From Deltaproteobacteria bacterium RIFCSPLOWO2_12_FULL_60_19 (GTDB lineage Bacteria; Desulfobacterota; Binatia; UBA9968), in the NCBI GenBank assembly GCA_001798595.1, contig MGSS01000057.1, positions 1 through 64,000 on the forward strand: 64,000 bases of DNA. The letters are read 5' to 3'. The notes under the pieces are model-generated. The model did no database searches. It saw only the letters and a program-made list of their open reading frames with translations, and was not told the origin of the DNA. Below, one piece after another: positions 7,447 through 59,768 of this stretch. Made by a program: the position numbers and the translations under genes. Numbering within the stretch: the stretch's first letter is position 1; every line of letters starts with the position of its first letter.

Positions 7447-7477
7447 GCGCGAAAATGGGAAAAGGGGTCAAAAAGGG

Positions 7478-7626
7478 ATCAAGTCTGCTCTTAGCTCTTC
7501 AGATCGTGAGGTGCGGGGAAAATGAGCCGGGAGTTTTTTCGTGGTCCTGGTTTTGCGGTAACGTTACGCGCGCGCTGCGCTGCTCGGCGCGTCGCTCAGG
7601 GCGGCTCATCCCGCGCGGCGTTGGAC
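7478..7626 (+). repeat. Direct repeat F copy 1 with attC-like right half
   Basis: This block begins AGTCTGCTCTTAGC and ends with GGCGGCTCATCCCGCG and GTTGGAC, a GTTRRRY-type core. An internal ATGAGCCG pairs exactly with CGGCTCAT, so the block folds into a long hairpin. A second copy lies at 8427-8612, so the ModA-like gene is flanked by direct repeats. Confidence 0.6.
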
Positions 7627-8424: not shown

Positions 8425-8426
8425 AA

Positions 8427-8612
8427 AGTCTGCTCTTAGCTTTTAAGATCGTGAGGCGCGGAGAAAATGGGCCGGGAGTTTTTTCGTGGTCTTGGTTTCG
8501 CGGTAACATCGCTCGCGCATCGCCTATCAGCGGGTTGAAGGCGGCCCCAGACTTCGCGCGTTGCACGGCGCTGCGCTATACTCAGGGCGGCTCATCCCGC
8601 GCCCCGTTAGCC
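8427..8612 (+). repeat. Direct repeat F copy 2 with attC-like right half
   Basis: The copy starts three bases after the ModA-like stop codon and repeats copy 1 (AGTCTGCTCTTAGC, GGGAGTTTTTTCGTGGTC, GGGCGGCTCATCCCGCG), ending GTTAGCC. It is about 40 bp longer in the middle than copy 1. Confidence 0.6.
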
Positions 8613-38661: not shown

Positions 38662-39786
38662 ATGATTGAGCAATTTAAGGAGTGGTATATCAACCGCCAC
38701 GCCTATGCCAAGCAGTGGAAGGAGCGGACCGGCGGCAAGGTCATCGGCACCTTCTGCACCTATGTGCCGGAAGAGATTCTGGTCGCCGCCAATATGCTCC
38801 CGGCCCGAATTCTGGGGAGCCATGAGCCCCAGGATGTTACCGAGCCGCACATCTTCGGCATGTTCTGTCCGTTCTGCCGGGATTCGTTGGCTCAGGGCCT
38901 GAAGGGCAGGTTCAATTACCTGGACGGCGTCGTGCTGGCCCATTCCTGCATCCATTTTCGCCAGACATTCAACTCGTGGCGAATCCATCTTCCGGTAGAG
39001 TTCGCGTACTACATCCCCATGCCCAATACGGCGCAGACGCCCCATGCTCCAGCTTATCACCGGGCGGAAGTCGATAAGTTTAAGAAAGCGATCGAGGAAT
39101 ATGCCGGCCGCCCGATCGCGGAGCAGGACCTCGACCGCGGAATCGAAATTTTAAATCGCAACCGCCGCCTGCTGCGCAAGGCCTACGAGCACCGCAAGCT
39201 CGACAACCCGCCCCTGACCGGCGAAGAGGCGATGTACATGGCGGTCACGAGCCAGTTCATCGATAAGGAGGAGCACAGCAACCTTCTGGAGGCTGTGCTC
39301 AAGGAGCTTCCTCAACGGAAGCTCCCGCGCGATGCGGGGATTCGTCTCATGGCGGTCGGGAGCGAGAACGACGATGCCGAGTTCTTCAAGATGGTGGAGA
39401 ACGTGGGCGGCACCGTCGTCATCGACGAGCAGTGCGCAGGGAGCCGCTACTTCTGGAACGAGTCCGTTCCCAACGGAGACCGCCTGGCCGCCATCGCAAA
39501 TCGTTATCTCGATCGTCCCGCTTGTCCCGTCAAAGACTACCCGGCCCACTCCCGCTTTCAGCACGTCCTCAACCTGGCCAAAGACTACCGCGCCCAAGGG
39601 GCGATCATCATGCAGGAGAAATTCTGCGATCCCCATGAAGGGGACAATCCCCGCCTGAAGAAATATCTGGAGGAGAACGGCATCCCGACCCTTTCATTGG
39701 AGTTCGACTCGACCAACCCGTTGGGTCCGTTCCGCATCCGCGTAGAGGCCTTTTTGGAAACGATCCGAGGCGAGGAGCTTTTCTGA
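38662..39786 (+). CDS. bzdN: Benzoyl-CoA reductase subunit (BzdN/BcrC-like)
   Basis: The 374-residue protein is of the 2-hydroxyacyl-CoA dehydratase/benzoyl-CoA reductase family and its length fits BzdN. Cysteines in GTFCTYVPEEILVAANMLP, FGMFCPFCRDSLAQ and HSCIHFRQTFNSW are the likely iron-sulfur ligands; RYFWNESVP and QEKFCDPHEGD are further conserved blocks. With BzdO it forms the active-site half that reduces the aromatic ring of benzoyl-CoA. It is the first gene after the sigma-54-like promoter. Other family members dehydrate hydroxyacyl-CoAs, but the following four-subunit set supports a reductase. Confidence 0.8.
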   Translation: MIEQFKEWYINRHAYAKQWKERTGGKVIGTFCTYVPEEILVAANMLPARILGSHEPQDVTEPHIFGMFCPFCRDSLAQGLKGRFNYLDGVVLAHSCIHFRQTFNSWRIHLPVEFAYYIPMPNTAQTPHAPAYHRAEVDKFKKAIEEYAGRPIAEQDLDRGIEILNRNRRLLRKAYEHRKLDNPPLTGEEAMYMAVTSQFIDKEEHSNLLEAVLKELPQRKLPRDAGIRLMAVGSENDDAEFFKMVENVGGTVVIDEQCAGSRYFWNESVPNGDRLAAIANRYLDRPACPVKDYPAHSRFQHVLNLAKDYRAQGAIIMQEKFCDPHEGDNPRLKKYLEENGIPTLSLEFDSTNPLGPFRIRVEAFLETIRGEELF

Positions 39787-39826
39787 GGAGGAATGCTCAT
39801 CATTTCCATAAGATCACCGTTAACGA

Positions 39827-40042
39827 CGAAAGACGCCACCCGCTCTCCGAGCCTGCGCAATGGGTCGCTACTTAATCCCACCGGCAGTATCGGATGCGCA
39901 GGCTCTCCGACCGGGCGGCGTCTTTCCCTGCGAGACCGAAGGGCGCGAGGGAGAGGGCCGCGGACGTCCGATGAGAATGGTTCGACTCATGGTAACTACC
40001 CATCGGCCGCGGCCCGAAGACTCGCGCCGTGAGGGCTAGCTT
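39827..40042 (+). repeat. Family-A structured intergenic element, copy 1
   Basis: Two hairpins are visible. The first has arms GAGCCTGCGCA and TGCGCAGGCTC with outer AAAGACGCC/GGCGTCTTT. The second has GGGCCGCGG (39955-39963) pairing with CCGCGGCCC (40007-40015). It lies inside the bzd operon, between bzdN and bzdO, ending 15-20 bp before the bzdO start. Copy 2 is at 47326-47551 and a partial reversed copy at 48790-48895. Confidence 0.8.
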
Positions 40043-40057
40043 TTGGAGGAAATAACG

Positions 40058-41389
40058 ATGGCAACCCTAACCAAGTATCCGACTGCGCCGTTGAAGTGTT
40101 GGCCGAAGGCCAAAGAGATTCGCCAGCAGTACTATAAGGACTACGCCGAGGCCCATGATCGAGGCGGCATCCGCTGGAGCGGAGGGGCGTGGGCCTTCGA
40201 CGCCGTTCCGATGGGCTTGGGCGATGACGTCCATGTCATGACCGGCGAGCCCTACGCGGCTTCCATCGCCTGGGATCGCAAGTTCGCCCAGGAGTGTCAG
40301 GATGCCACCGATGCGAAGGGCTGGGCCCGGGACCTCTGCTCGTACATGCGCATCTACTGGGGTTCTATGTATCTCAACCGCTTTTTCTTTGGCGGGGAAT
40401 TCCCCAAGCCGGATTTTTATTACCAGAGCCAAATCTGCTGCAGCCACTCCAAGTGGGACCAGGAAGCCTCGCTCTATGAGAAGGTCCCATATTTCTGCGT
40501 CGATGTCTGCGTCGGTCCCTATGAGACGCTGGACGAGAGCCGGCTCAATTACGTGGTCAATCAGTTGCACGATTCCATCGCCGGGATGGAGAAGGCGACC
40601 GGGAGAAAGTACGACGACGAGAAGCTCATCGCCGCGGTGCACAACGAATGCCGCAGCACCTCCCTGTGGGCGGAGATCTGCACGCTCAACAAGGCCGTCC
40701 CGGCGCCGCTCGACGAGAAGACCATGTTCTCGCTCTACGTGCTGGCCACTCTCCAGCGCTCTTCCAAGCAGGTCGCCGACTATTACGAAGAGTTGCGCGA
40801 TGAGGTCAAGGACCGGGTGGCGCGCGGGATCGCCGCCGTGCCTTACGAGCGTTGCCGGATCATCACCGACACGCAGCCGCCGTGGGGCTTTCTCAAGATT
40901 TACCGCTACATGGAGCAATTCGGAGTCGTCTCCGTGGGCTCGGTTTATACGTTCGGCCTCGAAGGGATCTTCGCCGAGCAGGAAGATGGAAGCTGGGGGC
41001 CGCGCAAAACGCCCCAGCAACTGGGCATCAAAATCAAGAACCGTGACGAAGCTTTGAGAGTCACCGCCGACTGGAACCTCTCGCGCCCCTGTTGGCAGCA
41101 TTTCTACGATCCGCGAATCAAAACCCGCATGATGCTCAAAATGGTCAACGAGTGGAAGCTCAACGGAGTGATCCTTCATCTCAATCGCGGCTGCGAGGGG
41201 CTGACGGTGGGGAGCATGGAGAATCGCCTGGGTCTGATCGAGGCCGGCGTGCCGGTCATGACCTACGAGGGCAACATGGCCGACGAGAAAGAATTCGACG
41301 AGCGGCGCACCACTTCCCGCATTGAGTCATTTATGGAAACCTTGGGGCTGAAACAGATTCCCGAGGCCGCGGTCGCGCATGCGGCGTAG
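40058..41389 (+). CDS. bzdO: Benzoyl-CoA reductase subunit (BzdO/BcrB-like)
   Basis: ATG 40058 follows GGAGG by 9 nt, giving 443 residues, the usual size of BzdO. Likely iron-sulfur cysteines lie in [28 protein letters not shown] and [10 protein letters not shown], and the conserved [20 protein letters not shown] block near the C-terminus is typical of the family. It pairs with BzdN to bind benzoyl-CoA and the iron-sulfur cluster. A structured repeat separates the two genes, so expression of bzdO may depend on that spacer. Confidence 0.8.
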
Positions 41390-41406: not shown

Positions 41407-41543
41407 GTCCGCCTGGGGATCTTTCGGAGGGCCGATGCGTGGGACGTGGAGATGCAAGCGTGGCTGTGAAGGCACTCTCGGTTCTTAGGAGCAGCGCAGC
41501 ACTGACGTATCGCATCGGCCCGGAGAGAGATTCCCAGGCGGAC
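41407..41543 (-). repeat. Family-B palindromic element, complete copy (137 bp)
   Basis: Outer ends are GTCCGCCTGGGGATC and its complement GATTCCCAGGCGGAC. Inner arms (CCGATGCG / CGCATCGG) also pair. In the copy at 48621-48756 the second base pair of the end is C:G instead of T:A, a compensatory change. It lies between bzdO and bzdQ. Confidence 0.75.
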
Positions 41544-41596
41544 TAAGGGGTTGATTCCGGCATGGAGCGATTCAGCCGGAAGAAAGGGGGAGAGTC

Positions 41597-47325: not shown

Positions 47326-47551
47326 GACGGTGAAAGCCGCCACCCGCTCTCCGAGCCTGCGCAATGGGTCGCTGCCTATTCCCACCGGCAGTATCGGATG
47401 CGCAGGCTCCTCGAACGGGCGGCGTCTTTCCCGCGAGACCGAGGGGCGCGAGGGAGAGGGCCGTGGACGTCCGATGAGAATGGTTCGACTCATGGTAACT
47501 ACCCATCGGCCACGGCCCGAAGACTCGCGCCGTGAGGGCTCGCTTTCGTGG
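47326..47551 (+). repeat. Family-A structured intergenic element, copy 2
   Basis: The sequence follows copy 1 closely over about 215 bp. Its second hairpin has GGGCCGTGG (47458-47466) pairing with CCACGGCCC (47510-47518), so the C:G pair of copy 1 is T:A here, a compensatory change. It lies upstream of the amidohydrolase start (about 45 bp), in the spacer shared with the divergent aldolase gene. Confidence 0.8.
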
Positions 47552-48587: not shown

Positions 48588-48756
48588 AACAGGCGCTTTA
48601 AAAAGGCTCATCTGCTGTCAGCCCGCCTGGGAATCTCTCTCCAGGCCTACGCGATACGTCGTTGTTACGCTGCTCCCGCGCGCTAAGAGAGGCCGGGAGC
48701 TACGCTTGGCACTGCGCGTCCCACGCGTAGCTCCTTCGAGAGACCCCCAGGCGGGC
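48588..48756 (+). repeat. Composite element: terminal-repeat motif plus complete family-B palindrome
   Basis: Seven bases after the amidohydrolase stop, AACAGGCGCTTTAAAAAGGC (TIR-like) is followed by the 136-bp palindrome with ends GCCCGCCTGGGAATC and GACCCCCAGGCGGGC. This is the reverse orientation of the 41407 copy and the same TIR-then-B order as at 11071-11197. Confidence 0.7.
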
Positions 48757-48789
48757 GGTGGTGATGGTTGCGCAGAGTTTTTCAAGCGC

Positions 48790-48895
48790 GTGGGGAAGGC
48801 CGGCGGCCGTTCGAGGAGCCTGCGCATCCGATACTGCCGGTGGGAATAAGCAGCTACCCATTGCGCAGGCTCGGAGAGCGGCCGGCGGCCTTCAT
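48790..48895 (-). repeat. Family-A element, partial reversed copy 3
   Basis: Only the first hairpin is present, reading GAGCCTGCGCA ... TGCGCAGGCTC on the minus strand. The outer stem is GAAGGCC/GGCCTTC instead of AAAGACGCC/GGCGTCTTT, so both strands changed together. It lies downstream of the SBP gene on the minus strand. Confidence 0.7.
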
Positions 48896-56109: not shown

Positions 56110-56270
56110 GTCAACTTTTGCCTCGCGCCTAACGCCTGTTGCCTTGTTAACGAATTTGCCCTATTTTACGCGCAACTAACTTCGGCTGGGTCGGTCGATC
56201 CGGTCACATCTTTGCTCCCGCATCACAGCCCGAACGGACCCCCAGCCGGGCTTTTGTATTCATGGTTTTT
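56110..56270. repeat. Family-E intergenic repeat, copy 1
   Basis: AATTTGCCCTATTTTACGCG, TAACTTCGGCTGGG and CGATCCGGTCACATCTTTG are repeated with about 80% identity at 58765-58890. The 394-bp spacer (55995-56388) between the CoA ligase and HigA contains no gene. Confidence 0.65.
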
Positions 56271-56388
56271 AGACTCAGGAGATAGGCGAGTTGAGTCAAG
56301 AGCAGACTTGACCGGTTTTTGACCCCTTTTGGGTTTGTCAGACATTCCTGATTCCCCTTTTGCGTCTTTGGCAAAAAGGCTCGCGCGT

Positions 56389-57144: not shown

Positions 57145-57205
57145 TCTCTGCCTGACGCCTATTGGCTGTTTCAGCCGGAGGCTGATCCGCTCCGCCAGAA
57201 GGAGA
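57145..57205. repeat. Family-E related fragment
   Basis: TTTCAGCCGGAGGCTGATCC and CTCCGCCAGAAGG match the segment at 58720-58750 with small changes. It sits next to the duplicated DUF5647 end. Nothing else is visible between higB and this point. Confidence 0.5.
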
Positions 57206-57209
57206 CTAG

Positions 57210-57395
57210 GAATTCAATCGCTGGAGTCAAGAAGGAGCAAAGCGGCAGGCTGAAAAAGGACAGCCGGTTGTGTACGTGAAGATTAAAAGGATTCAGCCTA
57301 TCCGCTCTCGCATCCAGGAGATGGATCTCAGCGCCTGAAGTCGACCCGTTAAGATGCCCGACACCTTTTGTTCCCCAAGCAATGGCACATCACAA
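57210..57395 (+). pseudogene. Duplicated 3' end of a DUF5647-type gene
   Basis: The 129 bases 57210-57338 encode EFNRWSQEGAKRQAEKGQPV and the rest up to MDLSA, matching the last 42 codons of the DUF5647 gene at 59417-59545 almost base for base. Similarity continues about 55 bp past the stop. There is no start codon, so this copy is a remnant of a recent duplication or rearrangement. Confidence 0.8.
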
Positions 57396-57572
57396 GCGTA
57401 GGCGACCCAAAAACCGCCGGTCCGGCTGTCTTCTCTGCAAGCCCTGGAAGATGAACGGCTTTGCCAAGGGAAGGCTGGATGCCGAGAGGCGTTCCGATCA
57501 TCGTCGGCGGGATTCTGCGGATCGGGAGGTAGAGCAGGCCCGACAACAATTTTTTCATGTGGGAACTATGGC

Positions 57573-58680: not shown

Positions 58681-58890
58681 TTGCCCTCCGCCTCTCGCCT
58701 CACGCCTCTTTATATCGCCTATTTCAGCCAGGGGCTGATCCGCCTCTGGCGGAGCCTATTGTCTTCTTAAGGAATTTGCCCTATTTTACGCGCAAGTAAC
58801 TTCGGCTAGGTTTCCCGATCTGGTCACGTCTTTTGATTTGGCATCACCGCCCGGACTGGCTCTCCTCGGCCGGCTAAACTGGTATTGAAT
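58681..58890. repeat. Family-E intergenic repeat, copy 2
   Basis: CGCCTCTCGCCTCACGCCTC, the GGCTGATCCGCCTCTGGCGG hairpin and AATTTGCCCTATTTTACGCG recur from 56110 and 57145. The rest of 58527-58976 holds only a short in-frame fragment (RREREEKREQKRMHEAARKM) with no start. Confidence 0.6.
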
Positions 58891-59291: not shown

Positions 59292-59545
59292 ACGTTCTCG
59301 AACAGAAAAATGCCGAGCTGGTCACCGAGTTCGACCGTTATGTCCGGGAGCACCCCGACTTCGCCGAACGGATTCCGGACAATGCGCTGGTGGCCATGTT
59401 GGTTGAAGGAGACGAAGAATTCAATCGCTGGAGTCAAGAAGGAGCAAAGCGGCAGGCTGAAAAAGGACAGCCGGTTGTGTACGTGAAGATTAAAAGGATT
59501 CAGCCTATCCGCTCTCGCATCCAAGAGATGGAGCTCAGCGCCTGA
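59288..59545 (+). CDS. DUF5647 protein
   Basis: I place the start at ATG 59288 (85 residues), overlapping the upstream stop as ATGA; the track start at 59246 is out of place. The sequence MNVLEQKNAELVTEFDRYVR and EEFNRWSQEGAKRQAEKGQP fits DUF5647. A duplicate of its last 42 codons lies at 57210. Function unknown. Confidence 0.75.
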   Translation: MNVLEQKNAELVTEFDRYVREHPDFAERIPDNALVAMLVEGDEEFNRWSQEGAKRQAEKGQPVVYVKIKRIQPIRSRIQEMELSA

Positions 59546-59768
59546 AGTCAACCCGTTAAAGTGCCGGACGCCTTTTGTTCCCGAAGCAATGCCACTAAAG
59601 AAGCTGCTTGAGTCTGCGGTGTAACCAATAGAGTTGGGACAGGAGGGCAAAGGGGACGCGAACCTTTTTCTTGGGCTTCGTTGTGGGGATTTAGGTTTTG
59701 GCTGGGCACAAAGATCCGGTCGGCGACAAAACAGCCCTCGAAGCAGTCGTGAAGGCGGTTAAAAACGC

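Follow-up and report, generated by a model that had tools for sequence, protein, structure and literature searches.

Elements of the IS200/IS605 and REP types are processed as single-stranded DNA. Among them, the IS200/IS605-derived PATEs possess two subterminal hairpins, short end motifs and a single active strand. Integron attC sites are likewise large imperfect hairpins that follow a stop codon and fold preferentially from one strand. Short palindromic dispersed MITEs comprise ERIC of Enterobacteriaceae, Correia/NEMIS, YPAL and RUP (PMC2229807, PMC10969869, PMC3049150). In the CIR repeats of Caulobacter, the 5´ and 3´ parts of an intergenic repeat form two separate stem-loops (PMC2229807, Table 1). 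Finally, single strands of GTAG-type REPs are recognised by Y1 transposase, and both GTAG and CGTC superfamilies are known with RAYT transposases (PMC3733652).

We propose that the spacer between bzdN and bzdO carries one copy of a non-autonomous, MITE/REP-like mobile element, which we hold to be probable, and that its hairpin, formed on one strand, may be recognised by an enzyme acting in trans. Copies of the element are dispersed and intergenic, they are inserted relative to empty sites, and their pairing is kept by covariation. Mobility is the best explanation because of the dispersal, the patchy presence, the empty sites and the lack of coding capacity.

The whole element measures about 260 bp and consists of a left end, two palindromic modules and a right end; it is often shortened to module 1. 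Copy 1 and its parts lie on the plus strand of the window (the whole stretch of 64,000 nucleotides that was analysed). Its location in the bzd operon, recognised already in a sequence-only reading of this DNA, is confirmed by the flanking genes bzdN (38662-39786, plus strand, TIGR03190) and bzdO (40058-41389, plus strand, TIGR03191, ATG at 40058). On the left, the insertion is abutted by GGAGGAAT (39787-39794), which matches the empty-site ribosome-binding site of relatives, GGAGGATT. The left end of the element, GCTCATCATTTCCATAAGATCACCGTTAACGAC (39795-39827), matches the consensus GGAGGAATGTTCATNATCTGGAAGGATCACCCTTGACGAT from G007, a relative from another genus in which this end is clearest. 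Module 1 (39828-39926) is a 99-bp palindrome made of a 15-pair outer stem (GAAAGACGCC-A-CCCG/CGGG-C-GGCGTCTTTC), an internal loop, an 11-pair inner stem (GAGCCTGCGCA/TGCGCAGGCTC) and a tip in which two small hairpins are possible. Module 2 (39941-40029) is the second palindrome, with GGCGCGAG/CTCGCGCC on the outside and the stem GGGCCGCGG/CCGCGGCCC (39955-39963 and 40007-40015) on the inside. At the right end of the insertion stands GGAGGAAAT (40045-40053), placed as the ribosome-binding site of bzdO; in other copies the right-end consensus is GCTTTCGGRGGAAT. For the family, the ends are GGAATNTTCATNATC..GGATCACCCTTGACGAT on the left and GCTTTCGGRGGAAT on the right. Compared with dinucleotide shuffles, the 244-nt stretch folds far better on both strands (z -5.7 and -4.9).

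Two sister copies are present in the window. Copy 2 (module 1 at 47332-47430, module 2 at 47444-47534, plus strand) is placed between divergent genes, and copy 3 (48795-48893, minus strand) consists of module 1 and is situated where two genes end convergently; of the three copies, only 1 and 2 are followed by module 2. All three copies listed in the sequence-only reading were recovered, together with the paired changes ascribed to them. The module-2 stem changes from GGGCCGCGG/CCGCGGCCC in copy 1 to GGGCCGTGG/CCACGGCCC in copy 2 (47458-47466 and 47510-47518), which amounts to one compensated base pair, C-G to T-A. In the outer stem of module 1, copy 3 differs from copy 1 on both strands, by several compensated pairs. 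The proximity of start codons, another early observation, applies to copy 1, which ends at the ribosome-binding site of bzdO, and to copy 2, about 40 nt before a start, but copy 3 precedes no start codon.

Other repeats are found in the same window. Another family of dispersed repeats, about 150-180 bp long and with ends CCGCCTGGG..TCTCTC and GAGAGAGATTCCCAGGCGG, occurs at 48610-48790, where it adjoins copy 3, and at 41409-41544, between bzdO and the gene that follows it; other copies of the element (L012, L017, L023, L024, L026) have matches of 74-87% to this family nearby. Repeats with AAAAGGGGTCAAAAAGGGATCAAGTCTGCTCTTAGCTC or parts of it are located at 7460-7622, 8426-8608 and 56293-56330, one of them inverted, and were not found beside Y1 transposase genes. 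Further, there is a 200-bp direct repeat, 93% identical, at 57198-57397 and 59405-59604 (about 2.2 kb apart), and an 80-bp direct repeat, 85% identical, at 56134-56213 and 58754-58833 (about 2.6 kb apart). The window contains no CGTC-type REP (dRS3-like).

The covariance-model search of the genome proposed in the sequence-only reading was performed with a model of module 1 and located about 46 distinct places in the host genome (4.19 Mb, 162 contigs), on both strands. BLAST returned 43 matches, the last few of which are pieces of module 2. Each palindrome also matched weakly on its other strand, and such matches were not counted; the copy lists come from a search that scored a limited number of candidates per genome. 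Full module 2 is present in 11 copies of the host genome. G007 harbors about 50 copies and carries module 2 also without module 1; the tip of many of its copies contains a further 20-nt palindrome. In some of its copies (for example, L089 and L232-L234) the perfect palindrome ACCTGCCTGCCGGCAGGCAGGT is inserted in the module-1 tip and lengthens the apical hairpin. G002, G009, G012, G016, G018 and G022 contain 1-5 copies each. Carriers represent 8 of the 148 genomes of the class, all from one family, and the rest of the 148 have no copies; G004, which is 100% complete and a congener of three carriers, has zero. G006 is devoid of module 1 and has a related element of its own, which comprises module 2 and ends of similar type. 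This genome contains many such module-2-like copies, with ends GGAATGGTCATGA and GCTTTCGAGGGAAT; an example is contig C230, 4324-6106 (L283). The exact core pattern is absent from the named bacterial genomes and viral contigs searched, no copy of the element was found in the plasmids and phages searched, and Rfam 15 gave no credible match at curated or loose thresholds, with nothing above the curated one.

The bzdN-bzdO spacer is 271 nt long here vs 13 nt in relatives whose BzdO is about 91% identical, and the element between these genes is therefore an insertion. With their 13-nt spacer, the relatives read TGAGGAGGATTTGATAATGG (for example, TGA-GGAGGATTTGATA-ATG), and the spacer of the window opens with TGA-GGAGGAAT and closes with GGAGGAAATAACG-ATG. 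Judged from these edges, the insertion lies within the ribosome-binding site, and a similar sequence is left before bzdO. Empty counterparts in relatives were found at two further places. A copy on contig C154, which has lost most of module 2, corresponds to short element-free spacers in four relatives. The atpG-atpD spacer measures about 260 nt with the copy vs 18-23 nt in five relatives, and this copy suggests that insertions within important operons are tolerated. G006, G008, G016 and G018 have other, longer atpG-atpD spacers, and the spacer seems to take different insertions in different lineages. One module-2-like copy of G006 occupies it, and the spacers of G016 and G018 (L284 and L285; 146 and 130 nt) contain other self-complementary-looking sequences, unrelated to the element. 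Three insertions are apparently common to different genera at orthologous positions, which weighs against the mobile-element reading. Around copies 2 and 3, synteny with relatives is lost.

With respect to the ends, GGAAT is found at the left junction in many G007 copies. The full element carries GGAAT-type motifs at both ends in direct orientation, each module being palindromic, and in some copies (L050, L069) an inverted left end stands on the right as well. In single copies the two ends show exact direct repeats (TTCGGTGGA in L067, TCGGGGGAAT in L124). End repeats of 8 or more amount to 12.9% vs 7.3% in swapped flanks; target-site duplication is convincing in single cases and weak as a universal feature. 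Our transposase search covered Y1 transposases. Three Y1 genes are present in the genome, with no element copy within the flanks fetched; none is flanked by the element, and neither a mobilising enzyme nor a full-length parent was found, which likewise speaks against mobility.

The paired structure is kept far beyond the three copies, which supports its being under selection or active repair. Across an alignment of 60 copies, pairing holds in 94% of cells, both-sided changes affect 12 of the 32 base pairs of module 1, and cells with double-sided change number 52 vs 9.6 in shuffles. Most covariation is carried by the outer stem; the sequence of the internal loops and of the tip is conserved. 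Columns flanking the 99-nt unit, which had no part in defining the structure, serve as an independent control. Columns -1/+1 are paired in 32 of 45 cases in the host genome vs 19.6 expected, columns -2/+2 in 32 of 43 cases in G007 vs 21.0 expected, and 0 of 2000 shuffles reach the observed covariation for either pair. Three genomes share one site (L075, L046, L049) at which pairs 4-96 and 12-88 differ on both sides. These double changes seem to have arisen in place, unless a copy was replaced by gene conversion, and a compensated difference at a shared site suggests maintenance in place after insertion. Selection for structure, which the sequence-only reading had deduced from three copies, thus agrees with the kept pairing, the 12 covarying pairs and the flanking columns, but active repair is an alternative source of the same pattern.

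Which of the two strands folds can be read from the mispairs. In 94 of 102 copies the more stable fold is that of the minus strand, the opposite of the strand described originally. Among wobble-type mispairs in the outer stem of the 102 copies, 93 are A.C on plus (that is, G.U on minus) vs 17 G.U on plus; copies are related by descent, so these strand counts overstate the independent evidence, and the three genome groups agree, the wobble split being alike in each. Consensus pair 11-89, for example, is an A.C mismatch on plus and a G.U pair on minus. By parsimony, G>A and C>T changes number 48 and 26 in the outer stem and 33 and 48 in loops (Fisher P 0.002), a contrast that plain mutational bias does not explain. 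Because wobble and stability favour minus, the folded strand is opposite to the genes in most insertions. In our best reading, the hairpin is maintained on one strand, where it would serve either mobilisation, in the form of single-stranded DNA, or a role as antisense RNA.

The latter could mean that the minus strand is transcribed and that every copy yields, or formerly yielded, an antisense or small RNA with structure, the hairpin being selected as RNA. The strong preference of wobble and stability for minus would fit, and so would the conserved tip and internal loops next to covarying stems, the usual pattern of a functional RNA. However, the wobble bias is equally expected of a hairpin of single-stranded DNA. 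The scanned region of copy 1 revealed no sigma-70-like promoter or terminator, there is no Rfam family, and 46 copies patchily present in close relatives are unlike a conserved sRNA. We find this explanation unlikely, though of appreciable weight.

The paired changes might also be produced in the absence of selection, by one-step arm-to-arm correction in replication (template switching). Many double changes are transversions (A-T to C-G), intermediates at basal pairs are few, and basal pairs in G000 show 26 compensated vs 12 one-sided changes. Arm copying nevertheless would tend to erase non-complementary internal loops and the asymmetric tip, both of which are conserved, and it does not predict that kept mispairs are biased to G-U on one strand. 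It could contribute to the double changes; as a replacement for selection it has a small but real chance.

With genes called by a simple codon-usage gene caller made for the analysis, the copies are intergenic, apart from a few called genes that overlap the element at their start and probably reflect start-site errors. The neighbours include bzd, ATP synthase, UbiD-like, amidohydrolase, pantothenate kinase, EF-G-like and transporter genes, with no common regulon visible among them. UbiD genes recur within the 20 neighbours scanned, and the genome-wide share of UbiD may account for this. Between co-directional genes, 42 copies point with the genes and 12 against (42/54, P 2.6e-5). Of the consistent covariation and orientation that mattered to the sequence-only reading, covariation is found in further copies; orientation is biased, not fixed. 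The element starts at a median of 36 nt past the upstream stop and lies at a median of 141 nt from the next start, which contradicts the link to start codons as a general rule.

Such placement might be expected of a cis-acting mRNA element between cistrons (attenuator, processing or stability signal), selected in sense orientation. The bias in orientation, the short distance behind the stop codon and the two pairs compensated between genera at one orthologous site are all in line with it. We still judge it quite improbable. In 94 of 102 copies it is the sense strand that folds less stably, the neighbours have no common function, spacers are element-free in most relatives, and an oriented target site could explain the bias just as well, as could the removal of copies that bring the stronger hairpin into mRNA. 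The copies do not take a consistent place before functionally related genes, as cis-regulatory leaders do, copy 3 being located between convergent genes. In our best reading, the bzdN-bzdO copy is not a cis-regulator of bzdO. The idea of a bzd-specific regulator fails, because this is 1 of about 46 scattered insertions with unrelated neighbours, and the same spacer is empty in relatives.

A combined scenario, which we consider very doubtful, is that a two-hairpin mobile element inserts in ribosome-binding sites, rebuilds one at its own end and so spreads in operons with little harm, while selection in place keeps its strand-specific hairpin at every insertion, where the host uses it as a signal in the form of single-stranded DNA or antisense RNA. 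Our confidences in the alternatives overlap, since some of them are compatible with mobility. Chance similarity or an assembly artefact of GC-rich palindromes, conceivable in a draft of 162 contigs, is practically negligible, given that the flanks of the roughly 46 copies are unique, that other genera show this structure too and that E-values go down to 1e-122.

For the mobile element that we favour, an enzyme supplied in trans would recognise the hairpin that one DNA strand forms, namely the strand running against the usual reading direction, and movement might proceed as proposed for REP or IS200/IS605-derived elements. Landing would preferentially occur at GGAAT-like sites, often GGAGGAAT. 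Because this target resembles a ribosome-binding site and the right end has the same motif, a ribosome-binding-site-like sequence would be left before bzdO. Any effect on neighbouring mRNA would then be a side effect of a large transcript hairpin and not a dedicated switch. At single sites, the element may later have been co-opted.

An uncultured aromatic-degrading lineage, whose relatives are deposited as Deltaproteobacteria MAGs, thereby gains its own ERIC-like repeat family, and the odd 271-nt spacer within the bzd operon is explained. Caution is advisable, as covariation in a repeated palindrome is not proof of a regulator. The strand-specific wobble test is a simple means of telling which strand folds and could serve for other REP and MITE families.

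How does the element compare with known systems? With attC it shares a hairpin behind a stop codon and the one-strand preference; we rejected membership, since the stem ends are GAAAGCC/GGCTTTC, not attC core sites, and copies are single, not in cassette arrays. REPs are also palindromic extragenic repeats, and the right end of the element in some copies, GGAATGACG, is the complement of CGTCATTCC. Nevertheless, its units are 99 bp and about 90 bp vs 20-40 bp in REPs, and the hairpin foot bears GAAAGCC instead of GTAG/CGTC; REP membership was rejected on both size and foot sequence. A REPtron was rejected too, as no RAYT gene is flanked by the repeat and the three Y1 genes have no copy nearby. 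PATEs resemble the element in two subterminal hairpins, a single active strand and similar short motifs, here GGAAT, at the left junction and right end, but its hairpins are much larger and no parent with a tnpA gene was found. CIR has two stem-loops in one repeat as well, in a different host group, and an association with methyltransferase sites is described for CIR. As a short, non-coding dispersed repeat of 99-260 bp in about 46 and about 50 copies, the element has the attributes of a MITE. ERIC and other bacterial MITEs are similarly short (about 100-200 bp or more), palindromic, dispersed and mostly intergenic; their copy number varies between relatives, and they can form large RNA hairpins and are also found in transcription units. 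The element differs from them in its two palindromic modules and one-strand folding preference, and it has no clear outer terminal inverted repeats or target-site duplication. We place it as a new family of a known kind, one with no Rfam match, which by form belongs with ERIC, YPAL, Correia and CIR, near the REP superfamilies.
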